From IMG/VR virus record IMGVR_UViG_3300040801_004479, positions 1 to 21,303 of that record: DNA of 21,303 nt. One strand, written 5' to 3'. Of this stretch, positions 1 through 20,435 are shown in pieces. The position numbers and the translations under genes are program-made. Each line of letters opens with the position of its first letter. The stretch's first letter is position 1. The notes below the pieces were generated by a model. It worked only from the letters and a program-made list of their open reading frames with translations. It was not told where the DNA came from and made no database searches. The DNA comes from a virus.

Positions 1-692
1 CTTTTGCTAGTCTTTCCACTAAAAATATCTTTCATTTTTTTCTTAGGAAATAACAGTTCAGGTTTTCTAAAAAATGAATGATCGTTTGTAGATTGCCAAT
101 CACTTTGAGACAATTTTTGTTTTTTATTTAAATGGAATCCATAAGCAGTAGTATAAAGTTTATATGATATATTACCTGTAGCTAATACCGCTTTTGGATG
201 TACTATGTCATGAACAGGTGCATGTACATTTAATGTAAATACCGTACTCCTATCTTTAGTAAAAAACTCAACATCAAATCCTGCTGTATCAGGTCTTCTT
301 GCATTCTCTGCTGGATATACCCTTTTCAATTCATAATGAAAATCATAACCACTCATGTCTTTAAAGTATTGTGTAAACACTTCAGGTCTGAAATTTGACA
401 TTAAAGCTGTTTTTACTTGTACTGCTGCTTGTTTATATTTTGCATCAATAGAATCCCAATCAACACCACTAGAACTAGCTGTTTTAGCTTTAGATAAAAT
501 AGCATAAGCATCATTTACATCTTGTGCCATTCTAACATCACCACCTTTATCAGGATGATGCTGCATAGCAAGATCACGATATTTCTTCTTTAATGCTAAC
601 TTATCATTAATTTCAGTAGCACTCATACCAAAAATCTTTAGTGCTTTTTCGAAATCCATTGTACGTTCAATTATATATTCTTGAAATCTCAT
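1..692 (-). CDS. J-domain protein with capsid-targeting-like N-terminus, partial
   Basis: The gene runs off the left edge; 230 residues are visible. It begins MRFQEYIIER, which fits the N-terminal tag shared by many genes here (Tyr-Ile-x-Glu at residues 6-9). A J domain follows at about residues 13-70, with the HPD motif at 46-48 in the context HHPDKGG and the usual helix III ending DAYAIL. J domains stimulate Hsp70 (DnaK) ATPase through HPD; no DnaK is encoded here, so host DnaK is the likely partner. The rest, to residue 230, is not recognised. The ATG overlaps the stop of the upstream 98-residue gene as ATGA, implying coupled translation. The J domain is seen directly. Packaging into the head is inferred from the tag. 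Confidence 0.8.
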   Translation of the reverse strand, partial: MRFQEYIIERTMDFEKALKIFGMSATEINDKLALKKKYRDLAMQHHPDKGGDVRMAQDVNDAYAILSKAKTASSSGVDWDSIDAKYKQAAVQVKTALMSNFRPEVFTQYFKDMSGYDFHYELKRVYPAENARRPDTAGFDVEFFTKDRSTVFTLNVHAPVHDIVHPKAVLATGNISYKLYTTAYGFHLNKKQKLSQSDWQSTNDHSFFRKPELLFPKKKMKDIFSGKTSK

Positions 693-985
693 TTTAGTTC
701 CTTTAGTATATATTCTTTTGCTTTTTTAAAATATTGAAAATCTTTAGTCTTTTCTCCTTTCATAATAATAATCCATTTAGATATATTTGCTTTAGGATAA
801 TTAGGGTCTTTCATGGAGTTTACTTTACCAACCACATTTCCTTGTTTATCAAGAATATCATATTCCCCAGGTTCAGATGCAGAAAATGATGTTATTTTAG
901 TGGTAGATTTACCACCTGTTTTAAGTAAATCATAATTCTTACCTTTCATAGGCTTTGCTTCATTCATATATTCTTTAAATCTCAT
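689..985 (-). CDS. Small tagged putative internal head protein (98 aa)
   Basis: Not recognised as a known family. The N-terminus MRFKEYMNEA is the closest match in the window to the T4 internal-protein targeting peptide, with a Met-Asn-Glu step before Ala at residue 10 as the predicted processing site. The body is Lys-rich (roughly one residue in five). It contains a short stretch resembling a small beta unit (EYDILDKQGNVVGKV, about residues 42-56) and a helical Lys/Tyr-rich end. It lies between the gp15 homologue and the J-domain gene, overlapping the latter by 4 bp. The function of the body is unknown. A role inside the capsid is inferred only from the tag. Confidence 0.7.
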   Translation of the reverse strand: MRFKEYMNEAKPMKGKNYDLLKTGGKSTTKITSFSASEPGEYDILDKQGNVVGKVNSMKDPNYPKANISKWIIIMKGEKTKDFQYFKKAKEYILKELK

Positions 986-1801: not shown

Positions 1802-1945
1802 CTATAGTTTAAAATCTTTTAATTTTTTACTAGCTTTTGATTTTCCATGTGTTTTTTCTAACCATTTCATGGATTTTTTTAATGATTTTTGTAAGTCTTT
1901 TTTAGATTCTTTCTTTTCATCTAAATATTTCTCAACTAAATCCAT
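1802..1945 (-). CDS. Very small tagged Lys-rich protein (47 aa)
   Basis: A 47-residue frame fills the gap between the gp15 homologue and the 159-residue gene. It has a near-ideal ribosome binding site (AAGGAG, 5-6 bases before the ATG) and starts MDLVEKYLDEKKE, giving the shared Tyr-Leu-x-Glu tag at residues 7-10. The remainder is highly basic and helical, with about 19 lysines, and ends KKLKDFKL. It overlaps the end of the upstream gene by 10 bp. Short length would normally make it doubtful, but ribosome site, tag and gap-filling position agree. No known family is recognised. A DNA-contacting internal head peptide is a reasonable inference. Confidence 0.7.
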   Translation of the reverse strand: MDLVEKYLDEKKESKKDLQKSLKKSMKWLEKTHGKSKASKKLKDFKL

Positions 1946-2415
1946 ATTTCTCTCCTTTCAACTATAACTTCAACACCCTTCTTTGTAACAAAACCTTTCT
2001 TTCTTTGAATGGTAATAGGAACAATAACTGCTGTTCCTTTTTCTTTATAGTTTTGTTTTAATGCAATCGCCATATTAACATTTGTTGAGTTACTTTTAAT
2101 AGTATACTCAATATTATTATCAGGTATGTCTTGTTTATTCTTACCTCTTTTTTTAGCAATATGCTTTTTAACATCATCAATATCTTTACGTAATTGAGAC
2201 CCCATTTTACTGACAAAAGCATCTAATACAAAATCTAAATCTTTTGTAGTAATAGGTGGTTTGTTTCTAGCATCATTGATTCTTAACTTGTTCATATGTT
2301 TGGAGAATTCAAAGTGTGTCAAGCCAAATGGTTTAAGTTTACTAAGCCATTTTTTCTCAAATGCACTCATATCTCCCATTGAAACGTCTTCATTTATGTA
2401 TTGTAAAAATCTCAT
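1936..2415 (-). CDS. Tagged putative internal head protein (159 aa)
   Basis: Begins MRFLQYINED, with the tag Tyr-Ile-Asn-Glu at residues 6-9. The body is unrecognised. A helical N-terminal half (about residues 15-95) includes a Lys/Arg-rich segment near 82-96 (DDVKKHIAKKRGKNKQ). A C-terminal beta-like half follows with a conserved-looking TAVIVPITIQRKKGFVTKKG stretch. Net charge is strongly basic. A good Shine-Dalgarno (AAGGAG) precedes the ATG. Upstream are two tandem hairpins in the only sizeable gap of this gene run. Localisation to the capsid interior is inferred from the tag; nothing indicates a catalytic role. Confidence 0.7.
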   Translation of the reverse strand: MRFLQYINEDVSMGDMSAFEKKWLSKLKPFGLTHFEFSKHMNKLRINDARNKPPITTKDLDFVLDAFVSKMGSQLRKDIDDVKKHIAKKRGKNKQDIPDNNIEYTIKSNSTNVNMAIALKQNYKEKGTAVIVPITIQRKKGFVTKKGVEVIVERREIWI

Positions 2416-2488: not shown

Positions 2489-2692
2489 TTACTCTCCTTC
2501 TTTTTCTGGGATATCTTGTGGAACAATTCTGTACTTAAGCAACGGCTTACCGTTAATAGTGATATCCCCCTTCTCGTTCTTCCCTATCGACTTCACTACT
2601 ATCCTCTTGTTCTTGAACTTACCACCTAAAACAACATCCCCAACATTAATGGGAATGCTTATATCTTCCTTTATATATTTATAGAATTTCAT
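2489..2692 (-). CDS. Small tagged protein (67 aa) with compact beta domain
   Basis: The start MKFYKYIKED carries the shared tag (Tyr-Ile-Lys-Glu at residues 6-9). The remaining residues read like one small beta-barrel unit: GDVVLGGKFKNKRIVVKSIG (about 18-37), a Gly/Asn turn, then a second strand pair around GKPLLKYRI. From memory, similar short VLGGKFKNK...GKPLLK proteins recur in T4-type phages, but I cannot name a family. It ends with an acidic tail (PEKEGE). Base composition is less AT-rich than its neighbours, with more C/G third positions. If the tag is removed by the prohead protease, a domain of about 58 residues would remain inside the head. Confidence 0.7.
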   Translation of the reverse strand: MKFYKYIKEDISIPINVGDVVLGGKFKNKRIVVKSIGKNEKGDITINGKPLLKYRIVPQDIPEKEGE

Positions 2693-3193: not shown

Positions 3194-3844
3194 CTAATAT
3201 CCATATATATTTGTGTCATAATCAATGGGATAATCATATATCTCATCACTTTCTTCTTCAAGATCAAGATTATCTCCAAATGCTGACAATGGTTCTGTTG
3301 TAGTATCCTTAATACGATTAGGATCAGTAGGTTGTCTTGTAAACCTTGAAATCCCTCTTGCAGATTCAGATTCATCTGAAAATCTATAAGGTCTAAGGAC
3401 AAAATTCCAAACCATCTTTTTTAATTGGAATATCTTTTCTTCTTCATCAATATCAGCTAATTCATATGCTCTATTATTCCATAGAGTAACAACAGCATCC
3501 CCAGGTTTAGGGTGATACCCTGCTGATACATCTCTTGAGAATGTGAACTTAGGAATGCTTGTAAAGGATATTACTTCTTCAGAATTGATACCAAAACCTG
3601 TTGTAAGAGTAGGTTCTTCTGTAGGTTCATATATTAACTTTGTTTGGTAAGGTCCGAAGTATCTAGTTGCAGGATTTTCGCCATATAAATAATCTTTTCG
3701 CCTTGATTCATCTCTTATATAATACTGACAAATAATACCTGATATATCGGTAAATTCTGATATTACACTTTCAAATAAATCATGCTCTACATTACCTGAA
3801 AGATGATGTAATTCCCATAATGGTTTTGTTGTTTTGATTGCCAT
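3194..3844 (-). CDS. 14: T4 gp14-like neck protein
   Basis: T4 gp14 forms a ring of the neck that joins the filled head to the tail. This 216-residue protein (T4 gp14 is about 256) aligns by eye in several blocks. The GIICQYYIRDE segment (about residues 36-46) corresponds to T4 GVECYYVPRE, and YLYGENPATRYFG (about 52-64) to the LIFGED region. KPGDAVVTLWNNRAYELADI (about 112-131) corresponds to EGDLIYFPMDNSLFEINWV, followed by a matching FQLKKMVWNF strand. The acidic C-terminal tail is Tyr/Asp rich. It has no targeting tag. Its ATG directly follows the stop of the upstream gene (TAA-ATG) with only a weak ribosome site, so translation is probably coupled. Confidence 0.78.
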   Translation of the reverse strand: MAIKTTKPLWELHHLSGNVEHDLFESVISEFTDISGIICQYYIRDESRRKDYLYGENPATRYFGPYQTKLIYEPTEEPTLTTGFGINSEEVISFTSIPKFTFSRDVSAGYHPKPGDAVVTLWNNRAYELADIDEEEKIFQLKKMVWNFVLRPYRFSDESESARGISRFTRQPTDPNRIKDTTTEPLSAFGDNLDLEEESDEIYDYPIDYDTNIYGY

Positions 3845-4075: not shown

Positions 4076-4471
4076 CTATTCCATCAATCTTTCATGTGTT
4101 TCCATAACAAGCATCAAAGCTTCTTCTATTTCTTTAACCCTTTTCTTTAGTGCTATAAGCTCTTTTTTTGTACTGCTCATAATAACACCTTCATTAGTAC
4201 CTTTACCACCTTGCATTTTTGATCTTAATGAATCAATTCTTTGCTTCATATAACTATCATGAGCACTATAATCTGTATAATCATCAACTTCAGGTTTCGT
4301 ATGTTCATGTGGCTTAGGTGTCTCATTGATTACATCTCCCAATGGAGTTCCTTGAGCTATACCAACATCAGGTTCAACCACCATTGACATATCTACTTCT
4401 TTAAATGCAGTTCCATCTTTTAACATTTGCTCATATGCACTTCTAATTTTCTTCACGTCTTCTACTGACAT
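4076..4471 (-). CDS. Unknown coiled-coil protein (131 aa), untagged
   Basis: No family is recognised. The first 35 residues are helical (VEDVKKIRSAYEQMLKDG). The middle (about 36-75) is Pro/Asp/His rich and probably disordered. The C-terminal part from about residue 95 is a heptad-like Lys/Glu/Leu helix (KKELIALKKRVKEIEEALML) typical of a coiled coil. It lacks the N-terminal tag that most of its neighbours carry, which suggests a different location or a role in neck or scaffold assembly. It sits between two tagged or semi-tagged genes in the same operon with about 10-bp spacing. Confidence 0.6.
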   Translation of the reverse strand: MSVEDVKKIRSAYEQMLKDGTAFKEVDMSMVVEPDVGIAQGTPLGDVINETPKPHEHTKPEVDDYTDYSAHDSYMKQRIDSLRSKMQGGKGTNEGVIMSSTKKELIALKKRVKEIEEALMLVMETHERLME

Positions 4472-4483
4472 ATTATTTCTCCT

Positions 4484-4750
4484 TTATTTTTTCATATTCA
4501 TAGCAAGAGTATGATTTATTTTACTTGTTATTTTACTTACATTATTCAACATACCTTTTTCTATTTTATCTAAATCTCTTATTACCTTATCTTTCATATC
4601 AAATTCCCATGTTTCACTAACACATGCTCCTACAAATTCCTGCCATGCCTTTTCAAGACTTCTTGCAGCATCACCTACAGTTTTTACTCTTTTAATATAT
4701 TCAGGTTTAGTTATTTCTACTTCATTTAAATATTTATTAACTTTATCCAT
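4484..4750 (-). CDS. Small tagged helical protein (88 aa)
   Basis: Starts MDKVNKYLNEVEI, carrying the shared tag with Leu-Asn-Glu at residues 8-10 as predicted cleavage step. The body looks like a helical bundle: GDAARSLEKAWQEFVGACV (about 26-44), KDKVIRDLDKIEKGMLNN (about 53-70) and a C-terminal amphipathic helix. A single Cys lies in the second helix. The start overlaps the stop of the EncFtn-like gene as TAATG, so the two are translationally coupled and may be made in related amounts. No known family is recognised; a partner role to the ferritin-like protein is possible but only suggested by coupling. Confidence 0.7.
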   Translation of the reverse strand: MDKVNKYLNEVEITKPEYIKRVKTVGDAARSLEKAWQEFVGACVSETWEFDMKDKVIRDLDKIEKGMLNNVSKITSKINHTLAMNMKK

Positions 4751-5094
4751 TATTTTTCTCCTGTTTTTTCCTCTGCTTCTTCTTCACCTTCATCCTCTAA
4801 TTCTTCCCATTGAGGATCAACTTGCTCTAAAATATATTCAAATTCACCTGAATGTACCTTTTCCTCATTAGCAATATCCTGAAGAAGTAATTTTAAATCT
4901 TTGTTTGTTGTTTGTGGTATCATTTGTTCATATAAATTAGCAGCATCTAATTCAGCAATCATAGCTAATCTTGCTATTGCAGCATCTAATGATTTACCTT
5001 TTTTACTTGCTACAAGCTCATTAAATTGAACAAATAATTCATTTAAAGCTTTCGCCTTTCTGCTTTCAGTTATATAATCTTTAAATTTACTCAT
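4750..5094 (-). CDS. Encapsulated-ferritin-like (EncFtn) protein with capsid tag
   Basis: EncFtn proteins are half-ferritins that oxidise Fe(II) at a dimer interface and are cargo of encapsulin shells. Here the ligands line up with Rhodospirillum rubrum EncFtn as I remember it: E48, Y55, E78 and H81 match E32, Y39, E62 and H65, with the same spacing (E to Y 7, E to E 30, E-x-x-H). The block ELDAANLYEQ (48-57) parallels ELEAVDWYDQ, and IANEEKVH (74-81) parallels NRDEEKEH. Residues 1-11, MSKFKDYITES, are the phage-type tag (Ile-Thr-Glu before Ser), in place of the C-terminal cargo peptide used by encapsulins. The C-terminus is very acidic. Likely role: iron oxidation or sequestration inside the phage head; the location is inferred. 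Confidence 0.8.
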   Translation of the reverse strand: MSKFKDYITESRKAKALNELFVQFNELVASKKGKSLDAAIARLAMIAELDAANLYEQMIPQTTNKDLKLLLQDIANEEKVHSGEFEYILEQVDPQWEELEDEGEEEAEEKTGEK

Positions 5095-5461
5095 GTTTAC
5101 CTTCCATTTTTAACAGTCTTGTATAATAATCGGGTAATTCAGCTAAATGATCTAATGCAATTCTTTTAGCAATAGTTTTATTTTTAGTATGTTCCATTTC
5201 TACCTTTATACCCATTTTAAGTTCTTTAGGATCAGCATCTTTTTCTGTAAATTTTTCTTTTTTAGACTTTCCTGTTCCTAAAATAGAACCCAAAACAGAA
5301 TAAATCTTTGCTTCAAAATCATCAGGTTCAAGACCTAATTTTTCTGCAAGTTTATGAACTTCATCATCAGGTGGTGAAGGATTATCTGCAAAAAAATCCA
5401 TTATAGCTTCAAGAACATCTTCTTCATTTCCTTCTTTCATATAATTTATAAAATTTTTCAT
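5087..5461 (-). CDS. Tagged DUF5661-like protein (124 aa)
   Basis: N-terminus MKNFINYMKEGNEE gives the shared tag (Tyr-Met-Lys-Glu at 7-10). A linker-like helical N-terminal half contains the Pro/Asp segment NPSPPDDE. The C-terminal half (about residues 70-119) has the pattern I associate with DUF5661: DPKELKMGIKVEMEHTKN, then IALDHLAELPDYYTRL. This unit, of unknown function, recurs in phage proteins and keeps Glu-x-Glu-His-Thr and Asp-His residues that could bind a metal. It is immediately upstream of the EncFtn-like gene and overlaps it by 8 bp, so the two are co-translated. Confidence 0.72.
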   Translation of the reverse strand: MKNFINYMKEGNEEDVLEAIMDFFADNPSPPDDEVHKLAEKLGLEPDDFEAKIYSVLGSILGTGKSKKEKFTEKDADPKELKMGIKVEMEHTKNKTIAKRIALDHLAELPDYYTRLLKMEGKHE

Positions 5462-5463
5462 TT

Positions 5464-5679
5464 CTATAAGTCCTTAAATATTTTTTTATGCATTCTTTCC
5501 TTCAATTTCTTCTCTAACTTATCAAGTTCTTTTCTTAAAGGAACTAATTCAGTTGTTTTTACATCAATACCCATTTTTCTTGCTGTTGGAACTATTTCAG
5601 AAATCTCTACCCATGCATCAACAAAAGCTGTTTGTAAACTATCTTTTGTTATTTCATTTAAATATTTATCTAATTTCAT
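5464..5679 (-). CDS. Small tagged helical protein (71 aa)
   Basis: Starts MKLDKYLNEITKD; Tyr-Leu-Asn-Glu at 6-9 is the shared tag and Leu-Asn-Glu the predicted processing step. After the tag come two helices: DSLQTAFVDAWVEISEIV (about 13-30) and a Lys/Glu-rich C-terminal one (about 47-70, LRKELDKLEKKLKERMHKK) typical of a coiled coil. No family recognised. It follows the gp13 homologue by 3 bases. Confidence 0.7.
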   Translation of the reverse strand: MKLDKYLNEITKDSLQTAFVDAWVEISEIVPTARKMGIDVKTTELVPLRKELDKLEKKLKERMHKKIFKDL

Positions 5680-5682
5680 TTA

Positions 5683-6564
5683 CTACCCCCAAAGGATTCC
5701 GTAACCTTCATGTCCTTCTTCTAATCTTAATCTTTCTTCAAGTGTTTCCTTTTCTTGGATACCTTCTTGAAGTAAAGTCTCACCATCTAATGCTATACCC
5801 ACATTACCAATTGAATTGAATTGTGAAAATTTGCTTCTTATCCTTCCTAATATAATTTTACATTCAGCTAAGGCATAATCAAATATCCAATCTGATGTAT
5901 AAAAATTTGAATCTGAATCTCCCGAATATAATCCTGTTCTTTTCCATGAAGATTGAGATAAACTTGTTTCCATCCCACCATATTGACTTCCTTCAATCAT
6001 ATATGATCTAACAAGAACAAAGCCAGGTGAATCAACAACTTCATTTTGACCTTGTTCATTTATAAGTTCTAATGAATTTCCTGAAGGTGGAGCAGGATGT
6101 ACTTCTAATTGATTAGTATATTTGTGATATTTATAATTGTAAACTGAAGGAGTATATCTATCTAAGGTCTTTAAATAATCCAATGCTATGTGATAATTTA
6201 AAATAGAGTTACCATATGCTTGTCCATTCCACATAAAATTACCATAAAACCCTCTAGTATACATAAAGTTTTCTAATGTAAATAGAGTATTTATTCCATA
6301 TCCTCTACCTTGATCATCACAATCCATTATATCTACAACACCAATAGGAAGATCATAAAAGTTTTGACCTGCTAATAAAAGAGTTGTGAAATAAGTTTCA
6401 ACTGTAGCATTTCCAACCCCCCATTTAACCCATTTCTGTTTAGCATAATCAATGGCATCATAAATTTGTTGAGTATCTAATTCAACTTTAATAACAGGAG
6501 CACCTAATCTTCTTTTTATAAGTTCAGCTAAATCCCCTTTTGATTGTCTAATATCTAGTGCCAT
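5683..6564 (-). CDS. 13: T4 gp13-like neck / head-completion protein
   Basis: T4 gp13 (about 309 residues) forms the neck ring that seals the portal after DNA packaging and connects to gp14. This 293-residue protein matches clearly at both ends. Residues 13-37 contain AELIKRRLGAPVIKVELD and then QIYDAI, against T4 KDVILRRLGAPIINVEL and QMYDCI. The last 35 residues contain LDGETLLQEG, KETLEERL and GYGILWG, against T4 IDGQRLIEEA, KEALREEL and FGILVG. It has no targeting tag, in keeping with a connector role. A homologous pair with the gp14-like gene is separated by six small genes, unlike T4 where 13 and 14 adjoin. Confidence 0.88.
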   Translation of the reverse strand: MALDIRQSKGDLAELIKRRLGAPVIKVELDTQQIYDAIDYAKQKWVKWGVGNATVETYFTTLLLAGQNFYDLPIGVVDIMDCDDQGRGYGINTLFTLENFMYTRGFYGNFMWNGQAYGNSILNYHIALDYLKTLDRYTPSVYNYKYHKYTNQLEVHPAPPSGNSLELINEQGQNEVVDSPGFVLVRSYMIEGSQYGGMETSLSQSSWKRTGLYSGDSDSNFYTSDWIFDYALAECKIILGRIRSKFSQFNSIGNVGIALDGETLLQEGIQEKETLEERLRLEEGHEGYGILWG

Positions 6565-6882
6565 TTATTTCTCCTTATTTGTACTTACATCCATGCTTGG
6601 AGCACCATGATCAGGAATACCCATAGCTCTTTTTCTCATGGATTTAGCTCTTTTCTTTGCTGCCTTTGCTTGTTTACCTTTATTGGTACTAAACAACCTT
6701 CCTCTTTTAATAGCTGCCTTTTTTCTTTTCTTCTTTTCCCCTGCACTCATCATTACACATTTACCATCTTGAGCTTTCATACCTGCTACAGCACATATAG
6801 TTTTTCTCTTAACTTTACCTGCTCTGATTACTTTTTTTAGTATCTCATTAAGATACATATCTAATTTGTTATCTATATCCAT
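6565..6882 (-). CDS. Tagged, highly basic internal head protein (105 aa)
   Basis: The best start is the ATG at 6882, which has AGAGGA six bases upstream; a longer reading from 6897 would put that ribosome site inside the gene. The protein then begins MDIDNKLDMYLNEI with the shared tag (Tyr-Leu-Asn-Glu at 10-13). After the tag it is extremely basic: a short TICAVAGMKAQDGKCVMM unit with two cysteines (about 29-46), then Lys/Arg/Ala blocks such as EKKKRKKAAIKRGRLF and AKKRAKSMRKRAMG. This composition suits neutralising packaged DNA, like T4 internal proteins. Two TATAAATA motifs precede it. Function is inferred. Confidence 0.75.
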   Translation of the reverse strand: MDIDNKLDMYLNEILKKVIRAGKVKRKTICAVAGMKAQDGKCVMMSAGEKKKRKKAAIKRGRLFSTNKGKQAKAAKKRAKSMRKRAMGIPDHGAPSMDVSTNKEK

Positions 6883-6903
6883 AGTAAATCCTCTCATTGA
6901 ATA

Positions 6904-6929
6904 TATTTATATTCCTAATACTATTTATA
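6904..6929 (-). promoter_or_regulatory. Two T4-type late promoter motifs (TATAAATA)
   Basis: Between the terminase stop and the basic tagged gene, the minus strand contains TATAAATA at 6929-6922 and again at 6911-6904. In T4 this octamer, recognised by gp55 with gp33/gp45, is the whole late promoter. The second copy lies 22 bp before the chosen ATG (6882) and its leader would include the AGAGGA ribosome site. The exact repeats are seen; use by a late sigma factor is inferred because gp55 is not encoded here. Confidence 0.6.
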
Positions 6930-6934
6930 TTTTT

Positions 6935-8503
6935 TTACATATCGAAAACGCTTGATTTAGTTAACCATGACCAATCATCAACATCATCTTCAATATCTGA
7001 AAGAATTCCCCATGCATCATCCTTATCTTCATCTTCATTTCCCTTAAATGACCATTCTTCACTTAGGATATTCATTTCAAATAAATAACAAGCCCAAAAT
7101 AGAGCATCAACCAAATCATCATCCTTGTCTTTACCGAAAAATTTACCTTCTTCTTCAATATAAGAACCTAACTGTTCGATTGTTTCTCTATCTTTAAGCT
7201 CAACAGACCCATCTTCAATCAGTTTCTTCATTAACAATACTGCTTTGGGTTTGGTATTCTTATTTGATCTAATCCCAAGATTCGCCTCTTTAGACCCTGT
7301 ATTAACTAAATTCTCATTCTCCCAATGCCACCATAATTGACTGATAACAGCAGAACCTTCCCCATTATTTTCACATAAAATATATGCATTGTTATAATAG
7401 ATAGATAATCTATGAATTATTTGAGCAAATTCATAAACATCTGTTAGATTGTCTTCAAATGCAGCAACTTGAGTAAGGTCTACAGGAAGTGTAGAATTGA
7501 TTCTAAGGATTTGAATTGTAGAATAATGCTCACCTGTACCTTTAGCAGGATCAACACCTATAACGTATTTACATCCATCTAAAGGTTTTTCCCATATTCT
7601 TAATCTGTCTTTTAAGTCCATAAATCTTGGATCAACATCCATATTAAGCAATGTTCTTAATACTTCAGGATTAATAACAGTATTTGTAGAACCAAGAAAT
7701 TTACATGCAAATTCCTGATTGAATCCATGAATACCAAGATTCTTAATTTGCTCTTTTGCCCACTCTTTATCTCTGCCTGGAACTTTATCCCAAATAACTT
7801 TTTGAGGAACAAAGGAATTACCTTGTTCTCCTTCAGTATTGGCACCCATCCATAGCCTATGGAAGATATTGAACATACCATTTGGAGTTGATATAATTAT
7901 AATTCTTGATTGTGTAGAAGATGAAATAGTAGGATAGTTACTTGCCCAAAATTCTTCTGCTGCATTAGAAGGAACAAATGCAAACTCATCACAAATAACG
8001 ATATTCATAGGCCAACCACGAAATGCATCTTGTGTGGTAGCTGATATAATTATTTTTGTACCATTATCGAATGTTATAGAGGTTTTAGCATATTCTGTTA
8101 CCCCAGGTTTTACCCATGCAGGTAAACTTTCATACATCTTTTTGATATTATCTAAGATTCTTTTAGCTGAAGATTCCTTATTAGATACAATACCAATATT
8201 CTTATTCTCATTGAATATGGCATACCAAAGAGCATAATTAGCAACAATGGTTGTTTTACCTGATTGTCTTGCCCAAAGACCAATAAAAAATCTATTCTGT
8301 TCAAGAAGATTTAATGTATCAATTTGATATGGATATGGATCAAATAATACTTCACCATGATCCAATGTAACGATTTTAACATAATTCTTTGTAAAATATA
8401 AAATATCATCTCTGCATTTTAATAATTCTTGTATCTGTTCATCTGTATATTCTAATTCTGTATTTGGTCTTTTGATGTAATTGTCATCATAACGAATTGC
8501 CAT
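6935..8503 (-). CDS. 17: Terminase large subunit, T4 gp17 family
   Basis: Packaging motor ATPase and headful nuclease. The 522-residue protein has an N-terminal ATPase domain: Walker A ARQSGKTT at about 78-85 (T4 has SRQLGKTT), Walker B IVICDE at about 168-173 with the catalytic Glu after Asp, and the coupling motif STPNG near 205-209. The C-terminal RNase H-type nuclease has its acidic triad in VIGVDPAKG (D318), CENNGEGSAV (E378) and DDDLVDALFWA (D466). An acidic C-terminal tail follows. T4 gp17 is about 610 residues. Its usual partner, the gp16-like gene, is about 7 kb upstream, beyond the prkA module. A terminator and a TATAAATA late motif lie just upstream, so it is expressed from its own promoter. 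Confidence 0.95.
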   Translation of the reverse strand: MAIRYDDNYIKRPNTELEYTDEQIQELLKCRDDILYFTKNYVKIVTLDHGEVLFDPYPYQIDTLNLLEQNRFFIGLWARQSGKTTIVANYALWYAIFNENKNIGIVSNKESSAKRILDNIKKMYESLPAWVKPGVTEYAKTSITFDNGTKIIISATTQDAFRGWPMNIVICDEFAFVPSNAAEEFWASNYPTISSSTQSRIIIISTPNGMFNIFHRLWMGANTEGEQGNSFVPQKVIWDKVPGRDKEWAKEQIKNLGIHGFNQEFACKFLGSTNTVINPEVLRTLLNMDVDPRFMDLKDRLRIWEKPLDGCKYVIGVDPAKGTGEHYSTIQILRINSTLPVDLTQVAAFEDNLTDVYEFAQIIHRLSIYYNNAYILCENNGEGSAVISQLWWHWENENLVNTGSKEANLGIRSNKNTKPKAVLLMKKLIEDGSVELKDRETIEQLGSYIEEEGKFFGKDKDDDLVDALFWACYLFEMNILSEEWSFKGNEDEDKDDAWGILSDIEDDVDDWSWLTKSSVFDM

Positions 8504-8534
8504 AAATCACCCCTTAAACATAAATATCTAAATA

Positions 8535-8542
8535 TATTTATA
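8535..8542 (-). promoter_or_regulatory. T4-type late promoter motif before terL
   Basis: Exact TATAAATA on the minus strand, 32 bp before the terL ATG and directly after an intrinsic terminator. A TTGTCA 16 bp upstream of TATAAA would also make a fair sigma70 promoter, so host polymerase use cannot be excluded. Spacing matches the motif before the scaffold gene (37 bp). Confidence 0.65.
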
Positions 8543-8561
8543 TTTTTAAAGTGTGTTTTGA

Positions 8562-8597
8562 CAAAAAAAAGAGGGAATAAGGTTTCCCTTATCCCCC
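8562..8597 (-). terminator. Rho-independent terminator upstream of terL
   Basis: On the minus strand GGGGATAAGG pairs with CCTTATTCCC (10 bp, one G-T pair, arms 8596-8587 and 8582-8573) around a GAAA tetraloop and is followed by TCTTTTTTTT. It ends the transcript coming from the small genes and the prkA module, separating them from terL. Confidence 0.88.
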
Positions 8598-8632
8598 CTT
8601 AACACAGCTAGGAGCAACTGGCAGTCATGTCA

Positions 8633-8956
8633 TTATATGGTAGAGTTTATTTTCCTTCCTTTTAATTTAATCCATCTACCTTTTTCTGTATCATATATAC
8701 TTCCATCACCATAATAAAGAAACTTTTTATTGAAGAATTTTCTGTTTTCGATTTGTTGATATCTTTCAATCAAAGGTTTTATATAATTATATGCATCTTG
8801 AATAATAACAAATTTAGCAGAATTACCACCTTTATCAGGATGATATTTCATAGCAAGAATACGGTATCTCCTTTTAAGTTCAGCCATAGAGATATCAGAA
8901 ATCTTATTGATTTTAAAAATTCTGAAATATTTATCAGTATTCATTGACATATTCAT
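8633..8956 (-). CDS. Small J-domain protein (107 aa)
   Basis: A minimal J-domain co-chaperone. Residues about 8-60 form the domain: YFRIFKINKISDISMAELKRRYRILAM precedes HPD at 39-41 in the context KYHPDKGGN, and helix III is AKFVIIQDAYNYI. The C-terminal 45 residues are basic and aromatic with no known motif. J proteins recruit and stimulate DnaK, presumably the host's. It lacks the capsid-type tag carried by the other J protein at the left edge. Starts at 8956, 8950 or 8944 are all possible; none has a strong ribosome site, and the gene overlaps the preceding zinc-type gene. A strong terminator follows. Confidence 0.85.
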   Translation of the reverse strand: MNMSMNTDKYFRIFKINKISDISMAELKRRYRILAMKYHPDKGGNSAKFVIIQDAYNYIKPLIERYQQIENRKFFNKKFLYYGDGSIYDTEKGRWIKLKGRKINSTI

Positions 8957-10257: not shown

Positions 10258-11784
10258 TTAAGTATCATTGAGATTCATTCTTAATTCGGGAATCCCTTCT
10301 GTTTTAGGCTTACTTGCAACATATTTGAATTTACGCTTATTCTTAATGGTCTTCAAAGTACATTTCTCACCCCATAAGAATTGGACATGATTCAATGTTT
10401 TTTGTGCATATTCAGGTTCAAGATCAACTCCAATATGTTCATGAGTCAATAAAAGCTCATTTCTTGAGAAATAATTTCCATTAGTTACGAACACTTTAGG
10501 AATTCCACTATGAGAAAAGCTTCTAATAATGATATCTCTGATTTCTTCATCTGTTTTATCAGCCACAACTAATTCTTCATAAAAAACATTCCCTACTTTA
10601 ACATATAGATATAGATTAAGTTTTCTAACAAGATCAGTAGTTAAGAAATTGTTCATAAACATCCAATCACTAGATGTTCTAACAATTTCAAACATTTTTT
10701 CTATACCCTTCATAGATTTATCATTATAATTTATTTTTTCTTCATGATTTTGGACTTCATCCCAATCATTACCATGTCTACCCGTATCCCATCTTTCAAT
10801 AATATCATTAAACATTTCACATCCAATAAGATAAGGATTCATAGAATAAGGATTTTCTGCTTTAACGAATGAATTGGAATAATTTGTTTCTGCATGTTCT
10901 GTTGCATTTAAATATCCCTCATTGAATAATTGTCTTAAAATGGTCTCATGTATATAGGTAGCAAATCCTTCATTCATATATTTGGTTTTAATACTAGGCC
11001 AAATATATTGACCCCATGATCTAATAGTTTCAAGAATGTCTTTCTGCCAATCGGAAAGTATTCTAGAATTATCTATAATATACCTTAGAAGGTCTTCAGT
11101 TGGTTCAATAGGAGTTTGATTTTTTAATTGCATATATAGATCATGATTCCATCTTTCCCTATCAATTTGAGCATCATCATCACTTTCAAAAAAATCATTA
11201 AATTCTGTTACTGATTTATCATGCTTTTTTTGCTTCATCCTTTCAAAAATTCTTTCAAGTTTTTCTTGTTCAGTTTCTTCAGTTAACCAAGGATTTGAAT
11301 GCCACATAAGCGCATGAGCAGCATCAACTGTCTGTTCAACAATATCAATTCCATATCTTCTTTCATATTCTTCAAATCTTTTAGAAGCAAGAGAAAGCTT
11401 ACTTGAAATATTTGAATCGTTTTCAAAGTGATATTTATTCATTTTAAAAAAGGCAACATGACCCACAACATGAGCAATAATCAATGCCTGTAAAGCAATA
11501 GTATTGTCTATCATTAAATATGCTCTTGCAGGAACAGTATTTACAACAACCTCATAAGGCAATCCTTCACCTGATTTTTCATATAAAGTTCTTACTCTTT
11601 CATAATCCCTTCCAAATTTCCAATTTGAAATTTGTCCAGGCATATTATATGCCATTATTTCAAACATCTTTTCTTTAGGAATGATATCAAATTCAATATC
11701 ACAAAAATCAAGACCCATCCCTTTTGCAATTTCATAAATACGTTCTTCTATTTTTTTAAGTCTAGGTAGTTCTTCTATTCTCAT
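10258..11784 (-). CDS. SpoVR / YcgB family protein
   Basis: SpoVR-family proteins act with PrkA (YeaG) and DUF444 (YeaH) in bacterial stationary-phase, nitrogen-stress and sporulation responses; the biochemical role is not settled. This 508-residue protein is full length for the family. Signatures include ISNWKFGRDYE (52-62), AHVVGHVAFFKMN (104-116, where cellular members usually have ACYGHNSFFK), MNEGFATYIHETIL (270-283), and NPYLIG followed by the ERW segment (316-332). The conserved His/Glu residues H105, H109, E272 and H279 could form a metal site. It overlaps the yeaH-like gene by 4 bp (ATGA) and ends the three-gene module. A C-terminal basic extension after about residue 475 is divergent. 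Confidence 0.9.
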   Translation of the reverse strand: MRIEELPRLKKIEERIYEIAKGMGLDFCDIEFDIIPKEKMFEIMAYNMPGQISNWKFGRDYERVRTLYEKSGEGLPYEVVVNTVPARAYLMIDNTIALQALIIAHVVGHVAFFKMNKYHFENDSNISSKLSLASKRFEEYERRYGIDIVEQTVDAAHALMWHSNPWLTEETEQEKLERIFERMKQKKHDKSVTEFNDFFESDDDAQIDRERWNHDLYMQLKNQTPIEPTEDLLRYIIDNSRILSDWQKDILETIRSWGQYIWPSIKTKYMNEGFATYIHETILRQLFNEGYLNATEHAETNYSNSFVKAENPYSMNPYLIGCEMFNDIIERWDTGRHGNDWDEVQNHEEKINYNDKSMKGIEKMFEIVRTSSDWMFMNNFLTTDLVRKLNLYLYVKVGNVFYEELVVADKTDEEIRDIIIRSFSHSGIPKVFVTNGNYFSRNELLLTHEHIGVDLEPEYAQKTLNHVQFLWGEKCTLKTIKNKRKFKYVASKPKTEGIPELRMNLNDT

Positions 11785-13142
11785 GATTCATTCCTTTCAG
11801 GATGGTTGATACCAAGCATATGCTGTAAACAAGGCCAAATTTGAGATTTATCTTTAATAATAGAAAGAAGGAATCTTTTTTCATTATTAATCCAAAATTT
11901 TCCTTGGTTTTTATCACTTCCTATTGTAGTTTCTTTAAACTTCCATTTCTTTAGACATTCAGGAAGTAATGTTGAATATCCATAACTATACATTATATCT
12001 GAATCGAACATATCATGATAGGGTTTTATTTCAACATAGGATAACATATTTATACCTTTTTCTATCATATCTTCCATTGCACTTACTGCATCTAATGGTT
12101 CAAAATCTTCACCATCAGAACAATAAATGCTATAGATATTCCATTCATTTAATGGATATTCTGTATCAATTATATAGTTAGCTTTTTTAAAAGCTGAACT
12201 TGCAAGTGTTCCACCTGTCAATCCCCCATAAAAGAAAGTATCTTCATCTACTTCAGTAGCTACTTCAGTATGTTGAATAAATCTGATATCTACAAATTCA
12301 TATTGTTTACGTAACCATGATACCATCCAAAATAAAAGAGACTTAACAAGATATTTTTTATCAGGAGTCATAGATGCTGATACATCCATCATAGCAAACA
12401 CAACAGCTTTAGAACATATTTCAACATCTTCTTCAATCTGTTTGAAACGTAAATCGTCATCATGAATCAAGAATCCTATAGGTTCATCACCATTGAGTTT
12501 ATCTTCATTGATTATTTCAATGGCTTTTTCTATATCACCTTTAGCTTGATTTAATGCTTTACCTGCTAATGTTTGAGCTTCTTCAAATTCCATATCCTTA
12601 AGTTTGGTATTTCGAATAATCTCTTGAATAAAAAGAACCCCTCTTTTTATTGCTTCTTTCATGGTTCTTTTTTTATGGATTCTTGAAAAAACACCTTTTT
12701 TAGATATGGATTCGAACTTCCATCCTTTGGGAATTTCAATAGAATTTTTCTTCTTTTCATCTAACCAAGGAAGTCCAAGGTCTTCAAACATAACATCAAG
12801 TAGATAGTCAATATCAACTTCTACTTCCATGTCTTCTCCATGACCTAAACTTCCTCTTTGTGGTGGTCCTTGTTTCTGTTTTCTTTTGATGATATCTCCA
12901 GGCTTACTACCCCCTTGCCCTACACCTGCACCACCACCACCTGTACCACCATGAATAAATCTCCAATCTTTCAATCCTTTAACTGAAACACGTACTTTTT
13001 TCTTTCCATTATCAGTAATGATATCTTCATTTCCAATAACATCTCTTACGTTTTTACGTATTGCTTCATCAATCTTATCTTGATGCCTTTTAGCATCTTT
13101 AAGACCCTTTTCAGTTTCCCAATTATCATGATATACAATCAT
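11781..13142 (-). CDS. DUF444 / YeaH family protein with VWA-like MIDAS
   Basis: The family partner of PrkA in bacteria (YeaH in E. coli, about 427 residues). The 453-residue protein has the typical start (RHQDKIDEAIRKNVRDVIG at 19-37, then KGLKDWRFIHGG at 55-66). A Gly-rich linker (67-82) with GDIIKRKQKQ follows, then an acidic/hydrophobic segment (102-125) and a C-terminal von Willebrand factor A-like domain. The metal-binding MIDAS residues are visible: DVSAS at 253-257, T312 in TGGTLASSAF, and D343 in CSDGED. VWA proteins often work with AAA+ ATPases, consistent with the PrkA gene upstream. The start has AAAGG six bases upstream; the end is coupled to spoVR. Confidence 0.9.
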   Translation of the reverse strand: MIVYHDNWETEKGLKDAKRHQDKIDEAIRKNVRDVIGNEDIITDNGKKKVRVSVKGLKDWRFIHGGTGGGGAGVGQGGSKPGDIIKRKQKQGPPQRGSLGHGEDMEVEVDIDYLLDVMFEDLGLPWLDEKKKNSIEIPKGWKFESISKKGVFSRIHKKRTMKEAIKRGVLFIQEIIRNTKLKDMEFEEAQTLAGKALNQAKGDIEKAIEIINEDKLNGDEPIGFLIHDDDLRFKQIEEDVEICSKAVVFAMMDVSASMTPDKKYLVKSLLFWMVSWLRKQYEFVDIRFIQHTEVATEVDEDTFFYGGLTGGTLASSAFKKANYIIDTEYPLNEWNIYSIYCSDGEDFEPLDAVSAMEDMIEKGINMLSYVEIKPYHDMFDSDIMYSYGYSTLLPECLKKWKFKETTIGSDKNQGKFWINNEKRFLLSIIKDKSQIWPCLQHMLGINHPERNES

Positions 13143-13167
13143 AGGTAGCCTTTCTATTAGATGTAAA

Positions 13168-13216
13168 GGTGATTCTACATACTTATCTTTATTGCTCTTT
13201 TATTACCAGAATCACC
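13168..13216 (-). repeat. 9-bp inverted repeat between tRNA and yeaH-like gene
   Basis: GGTGATTCT (13168-13176) and AGAATCACC (13208-13216) are perfect inverted copies separated by 31 bases. They lie just after the tRNA 3' end in transcription. Possible RNA stem affecting tRNA release or yeaH translation; low certainty. Confidence 0.35.
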
Positions 13217-13239
13217 AAACCGAAATCTCAAGAGCTTAT

Positions 13240-13318
13240 TGGTGGAGCGTGTGGGAATCGAACCCACCTGATTTCTTCGGTGCAAGCGAAGTGACCACCC
13301 CTTGCAGTCCCACGTCCC
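13240..13318 (-). tRNA. tRNA-Ala (anticodon UGC) with encoded CCA
   Basis: The minus strand folds as a cloverleaf. The acceptor is GGGACGT with ACGCTCC, discriminator A and encoded CCA. The D stem is GACT/GGTC with a 9-base loop. The anticodon stem CTTCG/CGAAG is perfect around loop CTTGCAC (U33, anticodon UGC, A37). The variable loop is 7 bases, and the T stem GTGGG/CCCAC encloses TTCGATT. The G3-U70 pair, the alanine identity element, is present. One A4-C69 mismatch lies in the acceptor stem. It sits in the 187-bp gap between the prkA-like and yeaH-like genes on the same strand, so it is probably cut from the mRNA. Function is likely but the mismatch and long variable loop leave some doubt. 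Confidence 0.85.
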
Positions 13319-13329
13319 TGATATTATTA

Positions 13330-18322: not shown

Positions 18323-19558
18323 TTATTGAGGAATATTTGCCAACTGAATCAATTGGTAATATTCTCTTGCCCCGAACAAGTGGTTATGAATAGCATATCT
18401 ACTCATCAATCCAACAGTAGGTTGAAATGAATTTTCAAATACTGCTCTACTAGCCAATAATTGAATATAAGGTAGATAAATAACACCCGTATCATATTCA
18501 CTTGGTCCCTTATAACCAACAATCAATTGATCTCTACTCTCAAAGGTATCTCTATAAACAACAAGTCTACCATCAAGTGAACCAATTCTGCTGACACCCG
18601 TAGGTTGTGTGGTCACGTCACCTGGGACAGGTGCAATAGCGAAAGCTGCCAATGTTTCAAGAATAGCAACGGCTCTTGGATTACCGACTAACCAATTACC
18701 ACTACCACGTCTTGTATTGATAGCAATGTCTTGAGTTCTACGGATAATGTTGTGATACAGTTCTCTATATCTTTCCATTTCCCATCTACCCTTGACCCCT
18801 TGAGCACTTGCAAGGAAATCCCATGTGGTATCATACCCACTAACCCCTCTTACGGTAGCATCAATAGCTGACATAAGTTCACGGTCAATTTCTTGGGTAA
18901 TCTCGTAGGCAAGAATATCCATCATTTCTTCCTCAAGATTCAGTCCATGCATAGCTTTAAGGTCTTGAGCAATCTCAAGAGACCATCTGCTTCTCAACTT
19001 TCTTGTTTTTGCTTCTACTTGAGTCTTTTCAACGGTCAAGTTCACTTCACGGATATGTGTACCCGCACCAATTCCTAAACCGATATCATTACCAACACCT
19101 GAACCTGCTTTAGAACCTAAAGCTTCACCTGCTGATGTAATATAAGACCCTGAATAACTTGAATCAATATTATTGTATCCAAGTTCTGTAGAGTTTGCGG
19201 TATAAGTTCCTGCTGTAGTTCCTGCTCTAAATCTCAAAGCGAAAGCAAGTCCAACAGGTCCAGTCAAAGGCTGTACACCAACTAATTGATGAGCAACCAA
19301 TTCAGGAAAAGTTCTACGAACCATAGGAACAGCAATCTTATGAAACATACCTGATGTAGGATAAGTAGCACCATCAATACCTCTACCATCTCCTGCACCT
19401 AAAGAATCTGCACCAGTACCCCAACCTGTAGTTTCCATAAGGAAATTATGTTGGTTTTCAAGCATAATAGCTGTAGACTTTTTAACGCTATCAGATGTAA
19501 TCTGTTTCCCCTCTTGAAGAACAGCATCCCACTTTTTAACTAAGTCTCTAATATTCAT
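18323..19558 (-). CDS. 23: Major capsid protein, T4 gp23-like
   Basis: HK97-fold shell protein of 411 residues (T4 gp23 is 521). Recognisable blocks are AVPMVRRTFPELVAHQLVGV (76-95) followed by QPLTGPVGLAFALRFRA, then KTQVEAKTRKLRSRWSLEIA (about 188-207) with QDLKAMHGLN, and WLVGNPRAVAILE near 288-300. These match the T4-type family. An N-terminal propeptide is expected: LME at 40-42 before Thr43 fits the T4 prohead-protease rule (I/L-x-E), and T4 gp23 loses 65 residues similarly. Ribosome site AGGAGGA is strong. A TATAAATG motif lies 32 bp before the ATG. High expression as the main late product is expected. Confidence 0.92.
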   Translation of the reverse strand: MNIRDLVKKWDAVLQEGKQITSDSVKKSTAIMLENQHNFLMETTGWGTGADSLGAGDGRGIDGATYPTSGMFHKIAVPMVRRTFPELVAHQLVGVQPLTGPVGLAFALRFRAGTTAGTYTANSTELGYNNIDSSYSGSYITSAGEALGSKAGSGVGNDIGLGIGAGTHIREVNLTVEKTQVEAKTRKLRSRWSLEIAQDLKAMHGLNLEEEMMDILAYEITQEIDRELMSAIDATVRGVSGYDTTWDFLASAQGVKGRWEMERYRELYHNIIRRTQDIAINTRRGSGNWLVGNPRAVAILETLAAFAIAPVPGDVTTQPTGVSRIGSLDGRLVVYRDTFESRDQLIVGYKGPSEYDTGVIYLPYIQLLASRAVFENSFQPTVGLMSRYAIHNHLFGAREYYQLIQLANIPQ

Positions 19559-19610: not shown

Positions 19611-20435
19611 TTACAGTTTGTTCTCTTTTAAAACATTAAGATATCTGTTCAGATGAGCTTTAAACGGGGAATCGTCATCTTCATCAAGATCAATATCTTC
19701 ATTCATAACTTTTCCTTTGCCCTTCTTCCCTTCATCTACGTCATCATCGTCATCATCGTCATCTTTTTTCTTATCTTTTTTCTTCATTTTTTTCTTATCA
19801 TCATCGTCATCATCGTCATCATCGTCATCATCGTCATCAGCTTTATAAGCTTCGACAATAACAGTAAACTTACGATCAATTTCATTTCTGTCTTTGATAC
19901 CTTCTAACATAGCCATGACATGATTAGATTGTTCCACGGTTAGCCCATCGCACTTTCTACGAACATACAGTTCAGCAGCAAGTTCTTGTGCATCACCCTT
20001 TACTTCAAGCTTTTCAGCAATGTTTTCATCAAGCTTATCTCTCAAAGTTTGAATCTCTGCTTTAGCTTCTTTCAATAAGGCTTTAACTTCCTCATCCAAA
20101 AGTCCTTCATCTACACCAAGTCTAACTTTGAATTGCTCAATCAGATCGGAATAAAGCTCACCCTTTCTTGCATATTCCAAAACCTTCTCAGGAATTGTCA
20201 TTTGCTCGTCAAGAATCTCATCAACAAAATTTGAAAATTTTGAAGTCATGTCTTCTTTATAAGCTTCAAATTTTTCCTCATATTGTTCAATCAGCTTTTC
20301 TTTTTCTGCTTTAAGCATTTCATCTACGATTTCTTTAGACTTAAGTTCAATCAAAGTTTCTAATTTTTCTTTGATTGCATCTTGTTCCTTTTCATCTAAC
20401 TTGTGAACACCAAGCATTTCCAGAAGTTTATTCAT
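19611..20435 (-). CDS. 22: Prohead core scaffold, T4 gp22-like, with poly-Asp tracts
   Basis: Position directly before the capsid gene and composition identify the prohead core protein (T4 gp22 is 269 residues; this one 274). It is nearly all helical and rich in Glu/Lys/Leu, with coiled-coil segments over about 12-160 (KEKLETLIELKSKEIVDEML and others). A conserved-looking domain follows (ELAAELYVRRKCDGLTVEQS and later MLEGIKDR, about 154-184). From about 203 come 14 consecutive Asp, a Lys-rich spacer, 8 more Asp, and a C-terminal segment (SPFKAHLNRYLNVLKENKL). Several L-x-E sites suit proteolytic clearing. Ribosome site AGGAGGG. Confidence 0.85.
   Translation of the reverse strand: MNKLLEMLGVHKLDEKEQDAIKEKLETLIELKSKEIVDEMLKAEKEKLIEQYEEKFEAYKEDMTSKFSNFVDEILDEQMTIPEKVLEYARKGELYSDLIEQFKVRLGVDEGLLDEEVKALLKEAKAEIQTLRDKLDENIAEKLEVKGDAQELAAELYVRRKCDGLTVEQSNHVMAMLEGIKDRNEIDRKFTVIVEAYKADDDDDDDDDDDDDDKKKMKKKDKKKDDDDDDDDVDEGKKGKGKVMNEDIDLDEDDDSPFKAHLNRYLNVLKENKL
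19739..19839 (-). repeat. TCATCATCG microsatellite encoding Asp runs
   Basis: Two blocks of a 9-bp tandem unit (TCATCATCG on the plus strand; GAT/GAC codons on the minus strand), about 19739-19763 and 19798-19839, encode 8 and 14 Asp within the scaffold gene. They flank a Lys-coding A-rich spacer. Multiples of 3 bp keep the frame when copy number changes. Confidence 0.85.

Follow-up and report, generated by a model that had tools for sequence, protein, structure and literature searches.

Phage T4 loads internal proteins into its head via a ten-residue capsid-targeting sequence (PMC9026906). The locus described here raises the question of whether a T4-like phage uses this route to load an enzyme related to encapsulated ferritin (EncFtn), a cargo of encapsulins. 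The locus lies in a 21-kb virus fragment of the IMG/VR type (record IMGVR_UViG_3300040801_004479), the whole 21,303 nucleotides of which are referred to below as the window. Pfam and PHROG matches place it in the head and neck gene block of a phage of the T4 supergroup. The coordinates given in a first-pass annotation of the sequence (4750-5094) held, and the strand is minus. The gene is complete, running from an ATG at 5094 to a stop codon at 4750-4752, with a ribosome-site-like GGAAGG just upstream of the ATG. It encodes a protein of 114 amino acids (aa), MSKFKDYITESRKAKALNELFVQFNELVASKKGKSLDAAIARLAMIAELDAANLYEQMIPQTTNKDLKLLLQDIANEEKVHSGEFEYILEQVDPQWEELEDEGEEEAEEKTGEK.

4750..5094, minus strand: EncFtn-like ferritin-family protein, 114 aa (phmmer to 5n5e, E 1e-13; Pfam, NCBIfam; AlphaFold and fold searches)

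The product is probably an EncFtn-type di-iron protein that enters the prohead in the manner of a T4 internal protein and is then cleaved. Shown in silico are the relationship to EncFtn, the conserved ligands and the fold, the tag with its use across the phage group, and a protease gene in a relative.

When all chains of the PDB were searched with phmmer, the best match was the EncFtn domain of the P. furiosus EncFtn-encapsulin fusion (5n5e/2e0z, E 1e-13), and further matches were EncC (3e-8), EncB (5e-4), and NE0167 (1e-3). The E value against the R. rubrum EncFtn, Rru_A0973, was 0.003-0.3 across its sequence variants. The aligned segments (query residues 37-98, chain residues 21-82) are ungapped and equal in length, and E48, D50, Y55, E78, and H81 therefore fall on E32, E34, Y39, E62, and H65 of Rru EncFtn. 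Among 25 aligned viral relatives, E48, Y55, E78, and H81 are invariant and D50 is nearly so. In Rru EncFtn, alanine substitutions of E32, E62, or H65 lower or abolish ferroxidase activity, and Asp replaces E34 in some EncFtns (PMC11202242).

4951..4953, minus strand: codon of E48, equivalent to E32 of Rru EncFtn (phmmer alignment; viral alignment)
4930..4932, minus strand: codon of Y55, equivalent to Y39 of Rru EncFtn (phmmer alignment; viral alignment)
4852..4863, minus strand: codons of E78-x-x-H81, equivalent to E62 and H65 of Rru EncFtn (phmmer alignment; viral alignment)

The protein also passes the cut-off of the Pfam Rubrerythrin model of the ferritin-like superfamily (PF02915, 28.5 versus 22.8 bits). 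Rubrerythrin proper was rejected, since the match spans only profile positions 5-73 of 137 and there is one ExxH per chain. The protein thus corresponds to half of a four-helix ferritin domain, which has two ExxH halves in one chain.

An AlphaFold2 model of the monomer, built with the viral relatives, had a mean predicted local distance difference test score (pLDDT) of 88.8, with helices at residues 33-61, 65-92, and 96-111. The predicted monomer therefore consists of two long antiparallel helices and a short C-terminal one, as in EncFtn. In the structure comparison, the top 11 rows were all EncFtn-type entries (Z 11.1 to 10.0), with 5n5e at Z 11.1 over 91 residues and 2.4 Å; Foldseek agreed (TM score 0.68-0.69). 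The hairpin with its C-terminal helix and the spacing of E32/E62/H65, Y39, and D/E34 are shared with the EncFtn family (the 5n5e/2e0z fusion, Rru_A0973, H. ochraceum EncFtn, M. xanthus EncB/EncC, and NE0167). Unlike that family, the phage protein scores below the curated family cut-offs, is encoded in a phage head block, and carries an N-terminal T4-type head tag rather than a C-terminal encapsulin targeting peptide or a shell fusion. The targeting-peptide motif L/F-x-V/I-x-x-L/I had no match in the C-terminal tails of nine T4-like copies. No encapsulin shell gene was seen beside or fused to the EncFtn-like gene, and gp23 was the only capsid gene seen.

In the T4 tag, residues 4 and 7 matter for targeting and residues 8 and 10 for processing, and the gp21 protease cleaves after (L/I)xE (PMC9026906). 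An E10D change in IPIII reportedly stops the cleavage but leaves packaging intact. T4 IPII and IPIII both begin with MKTYQEFIAE. The EncFtn-like protein begins with MSKFKDYITE, in the register of the IPIII tag and with the gp21 site at its end, so that F4, Y7, I8, and E10 stand at the positions of Y4, F7, I8, and E10 in IPIII.

5065..5094, minus strand: capsid-targeting tag MSKFKDYITE, with a predicted gp21 cut after E10 (IPIII register; group-wide tag enrichment)

A strict form of the tag, ^M.{1,3}[FYILVM]..[YFW][ILM].E, was found on 8 of the 30 N-termini of open reading frames (ORFs) in the window, where about 0.08 were predicted from an internal rate of 9e-4 per position (P 1.6e-14), and on 78 of 383 non-redundant ORFs of the phage group (the window, L002-L010, and L142-L183), where 1.2 were expected (P 1e-114); these P values are indicative only, since the pattern was written after the N-termini had been viewed and related ORFs are not fully independent. 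The group consensus is M[RK][FL]xxY[LI]xE. As an independent check, the strict pattern picked exactly ipII and ipIII among the 35 coding sequences of a T4 stretch. A close relative carries a gene for the gp21 protease on an 81-kb contig (E 5e-32).

The phage group resembles T4, with its IPI, IPII, and IPIII, in the ten-residue N-terminal tag, the (L/I)xE cut site, the accessory and variable set of cargoes, and gp21 in a relative. It differs from T4 in having many more tagged ORFs and in that the known T4 internal proteins are not ferritin-like, whereas the cargo here is a predicted di-iron enzyme. About 1 in 5 ORFs of the group bears the head tag, far above the three internal proteins of T4, and most of these ORFs have no known function.

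The core of the first-pass annotation was upheld and strengthened by these results: the resemblance to EncFtn with the spacing of E48, Y55, E78, and H81, and the phage capsid tag. The functional parallel to encapsulin cargo loading that it drew is supported in silico by the combination of an EncFtn-type domain with a T4-type tag. In kind, an already known packaging route would here take up a new class of cargo.

From this we infer incorporation into the head, cleavage, assembly as a dimer or decamer, ferroxidase activity, and a benefit to the phage. While the prohead assembles, the first ten residues would dock the EncFtn-like protein on its scaffold core. Cleavage by gp21 after I-T-E10 would shorten the protein to about 104 residues, and in this mature di-iron form it would stay in the head together with the DNA. 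Because each chain contributes one two-helix hairpin, the di-iron site of E48, E78, and H81 would form only between two chains. By analogy with the family, the mature protein would probably bind and oxidise Fe(II), using up O2 or peroxide and limiting the harm done by Fenton chemistry to DNA that is packaged or has just been injected. At a width of 7-8 nm (PMC11202242), an EncFtn decamer would not fit through the T4 portal channel of about 3 nm (PMC9026906); the protein would therefore either act inside the virion or travel as smaller units.

In related phages, the interval between the head-tail adaptor gene (Ad2) and the head closure gene (Hc2) forms a cargo island whose set of tagged ORFs changes from phage to phage. 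The EncFtn-like gene was present in 11 of 46 related loci, at least 3 of the 46 having too little downstream DNA to tell. Since only 11 loci carry it, the gene encodes an accessory cargo, comparable in this to the T-even internal proteins. The strict tag is kept in 10 of these 11 loci. The ratio of nonsynonymous to synonymous substitution rates (dN/dS) between close copies is 0.02-0.26, indicative of purifying selection. The island borders, the other head genes, and the remaining tagged ORFs of the window are as follows.

5683..6564, minus strand: head-tail adaptor Ad2, one border of the cargo island (PHROG 211, E 6e-22)
3194..3844, minus strand: head closure Hc2, the other border (PHROG 679, E 1e-7)
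6935..8503, minus strand: large terminase, T4 type (Pfam Terminase_6N, E 3e-21)
18323..19558, minus strand: major capsid protein gp23 (Pfam Gp23, E 8e-92)
19611..20435, minus strand: scaffolding protein, gp22 type (Pfam T4_CASP, E 1e-11; PHROG 237, E 4e-11)
5464..5679, minus strand: tagged small ORF, MKLDKYLNE (strict tag)
5087..5461, minus strand: tagged DUF5661 protein, MKNFINYMKE, directly upstream of the EncFtn-like gene and overlapping its start by 8 bases (Pfam PF18905, E 7e-15; strict tag)
4484..4750, minus strand: tagged small ORF, MDKVNKYLNE (strict tag)
2489..2692, minus strand: tagged small ORF, MKFYKYIKE (strict tag)
1936..2415, minus strand: tagged ORF, MRFLQYINE (strict tag)
689..985, minus strand: tagged ORF, MRFKEYMNE (strict tag)
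3..692, minus strand: tagged DnaJ-domain protein, MRFQEYIIE, running off the end of the window (Pfam DnaJ, E 9e-8; strict tag)

The DUF5661 gene directly precedes the EncFtn-like gene in four loci (the window, L007, L142, and L161), and DUF5661 genes recur in the cargo island of most related phages, including those that lack the EncFtn-like gene. DnaJ-like ORFs that are similar and likewise tagged occur in L002 and L005. Outside the island, three genes in a row (10258-15321) form a complete stress/sporulation-type cluster in a phage: a PrkA-type serine kinase (13330-15321, minus strand; NCBIfam E 8e-82), a YhbH/YeaH protein (11781-13142, minus strand; E 6e-84), and a SpoVR/YcgB protein (10258-11784, minus strand; E 2e-63). 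The related contigs L002 and L004 hold parts of this cluster.

Several observations weigh against a packaged EncFtn-type protein. The profile searches proposed by the first-pass annotation gave a divided outcome: PF02915 passed, and three curated EncFtn models were significant yet below their cut-offs, namely Pfam EncFtn-like PF22277 (24.5 bits, cut-off 27), NCBIfam EncB_fam (E 5.5e-16; 58.6 bits, cut-off 90), and TIGR04535 (E 7e-12; 45.3 bits, cut-off 125). "EncFtn-like" is therefore the correct name. In the structure comparison, which used the monomer model only, unrelated helical hairpins scored Z 9.6 and below, just 0.4-1.5 Z under the EncFtn structures; fold alone is thus weak, and the sequence and its ligands decide. 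The window, a 21-kb fragment, does not reach a gp21 gene. Most related loci (35 of 46) lack the EncFtn-like gene, and one copy, that of L161, is without the strict tag. The L161 frame (starting at 2848) begins with MSKQDFINIFEAYRKML, which resembles the N-terminus of a conserved neighbour in the window (4076-4471, MSVEDVKKIRSAYEQML); this shared N-terminus is perhaps another head signal.

The closest cellular sequences are free-standing EncFtn-like proteins, mostly of 93-95 aa and at most 60% identical over the matched segment, from archaea (Lokiarchaeota, Bathyarchaeota, Woesearchaeota, and others), Nitrospirae, Deltaproteobacteria, and other groups. Unlike the phage protein, none of 77 such relatives carries the strict tag. 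Several of their genes adjoin ORFs that, judged by eye, resemble desulfoferrodoxin, rubrerythrin, ferritin, or peroxiredoxin, which suggests an oxygen-stress background. Linocin_M18 encapsulin was detected in none of 50 genomes holding these kin, some of which are incomplete, and in three control genomes. A weakly resolved tree of 81 columns, with long EncB and EncC branches, does not put the phage group inside the encapsulin cargo. The data give no support for descent from encapsulin cargo. The first-pass annotation had also seen a bearing on the origin of encapsulins, which we do not retain, because the nearest cellular kin are free-standing and the 50 genomes lack a detectable encapsulin.

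The EncFtn-type domain recurs in unrelated viral contigs. The C-terminal part of a portal protein carries it as a fusion in L027, L028, and L030 (PF06381; E 8e-72, 8e-77, and, marginally under the cut-off, 5.5e-8, respectively). In L028, a portal protein shares a single open frame (5974-8634) with an EncFtn-like domain and with a topoisomerase domain of type IB. When the portal-fused form served as query, the sole match in the phage records was a weak one to Eggerthella phage LE2-3, a 948-aa "ferritin-like superfamily protein" encoded about 2 kb before the major capsid gene.

Position-specific patterns revealed shared N-terminal words in other phages. The EncFtn-like gene of G032 has its word (MTIIKE; MYLIKE) in common with 8 other ORFs of 30 (P 1.5e-17). 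Nine of the 30 ORFs of G032 (L034, L051), the EncFtn-like one included, begin with M-x-[IL]-[ILV]-[KR]-E (MYLIKES, MTIIKEG), which may be a further head tag whose cut site resembles (L/I)xE. On the 411-kb contig G013, the EncFtn-like ORF has MNPRKAFEQALAK in common with both neighbours. There, three adjacent ORFs (L015, 7597-8752) begin with MNPRKAFEQALAK-like words; the EncFtn-like ORF contains a second, internal copy, and the next ORF two tandem copies. The word MK[YH][IL]KTFE is found on 12 of 64 ORFs of G019 (L048-L050; P 5e-18) and also in L014 and L024. G019 and G030 were not counted as tagged, the EncFtn of G019 fitting this word loosely and the pattern in G030 being weak. A similarity comparison of EncFtn N-termini with those of neighbours gave no signal in G030, G019, or G032.

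As judged from sequence, the portal fusions and shared words point towards the virion, by other means. It is conceivable, though we hold this only tentatively, that the loading of HK97-fold heads with EncFtn-type ferroxidase domains, whether by a T4 tag, other lineage-specific N-terminal tags, or portal fusion, arose independently in several unrelated phage lineages, which would make the head an iron-oxidising, DNA-protecting, encapsulin-analogous compartment.

Packaging could also serve delivery. The protein would then be an injected effector, a rubrerythrin/EncFtn-like scavenger of iron or peroxide that works not in the virion but in the cell just infected, which is probably anaerobic. Internal proteins of T4, for example the restriction inhibitor IPI, enter the host together with the DNA and are active there (PMC3012670, PMC9026906), and the nearest cellular kin come largely from anaerobic lineages, several lying beside the oxidative-stress-like ORFs noted above. 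However, passage of a 7-8 nm decamer through a channel of about 3 nm would require dimers, monomers, or unfolding, and the portal-fused versions in other phages would remain with the particle. We consider this role unlikely.

Still less probable is a structural role, in which the hairpin dimer would serve as a module of the scaffold core or to fill the head, with a metal site that only holds the dimer together. Such a role would be in line with the iron dependence of EncFtn decamer assembly (PMC11202242) and with the fusion of the domain to the portal in L027, L028, and L030. However, many related phages lack the gene, which is therefore not a needed scaffold part, and the conservation of Y55 and D50 besides the ligands E48, E78, and H81 suggests redox chemistry and iron entry. 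An equally improbable proposal, that the tag is a chance likeness among N-terminal amphipathic helices and the protein a cytoplasmic iron or oxidative-stress protein of the infected cell, fits the stand-alone cellular kin in genomes without detectable encapsulin but not the position-exact match to an experimentally defined T4 signal, its presence on dozens of unrelated ORFs of the same phages, or the gp21 protease in a relative.

Packaging of an EncFtn-like protein as a T4-type cargo thus remains our preferred reading. The phage has no near sequenced isolate; the best listed capsid matches, mostly to cyanophages, are at most about 35% identical. The EncFtn-like protein had no homologue at E 0.01 among 50,697 phage records and no significant PHROG family, and a second viral EncFtn copy used as query likewise found nothing in the phage records. 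A search of the literature on phage ferritin-like virion proteins returned nothing relevant, although subscription papers lay largely outside it and a prior description is possible. A large encapsulin survey discarded phage-like loci as contamination (PMC8346489), and such cases could therefore have been missed.

If the proposed packaging is correct, phage heads are loaded with a ferroxidase in a way that parallels the loading of encapsulins. The same tag flags dozens of other candidate head cargoes. The finding would bear on the presence of iron in virions, on the survival of packaged DNA under attack by oxidants, and on the plausibility of phage heads with an enzyme inside as a stage on the way to encapsulins.
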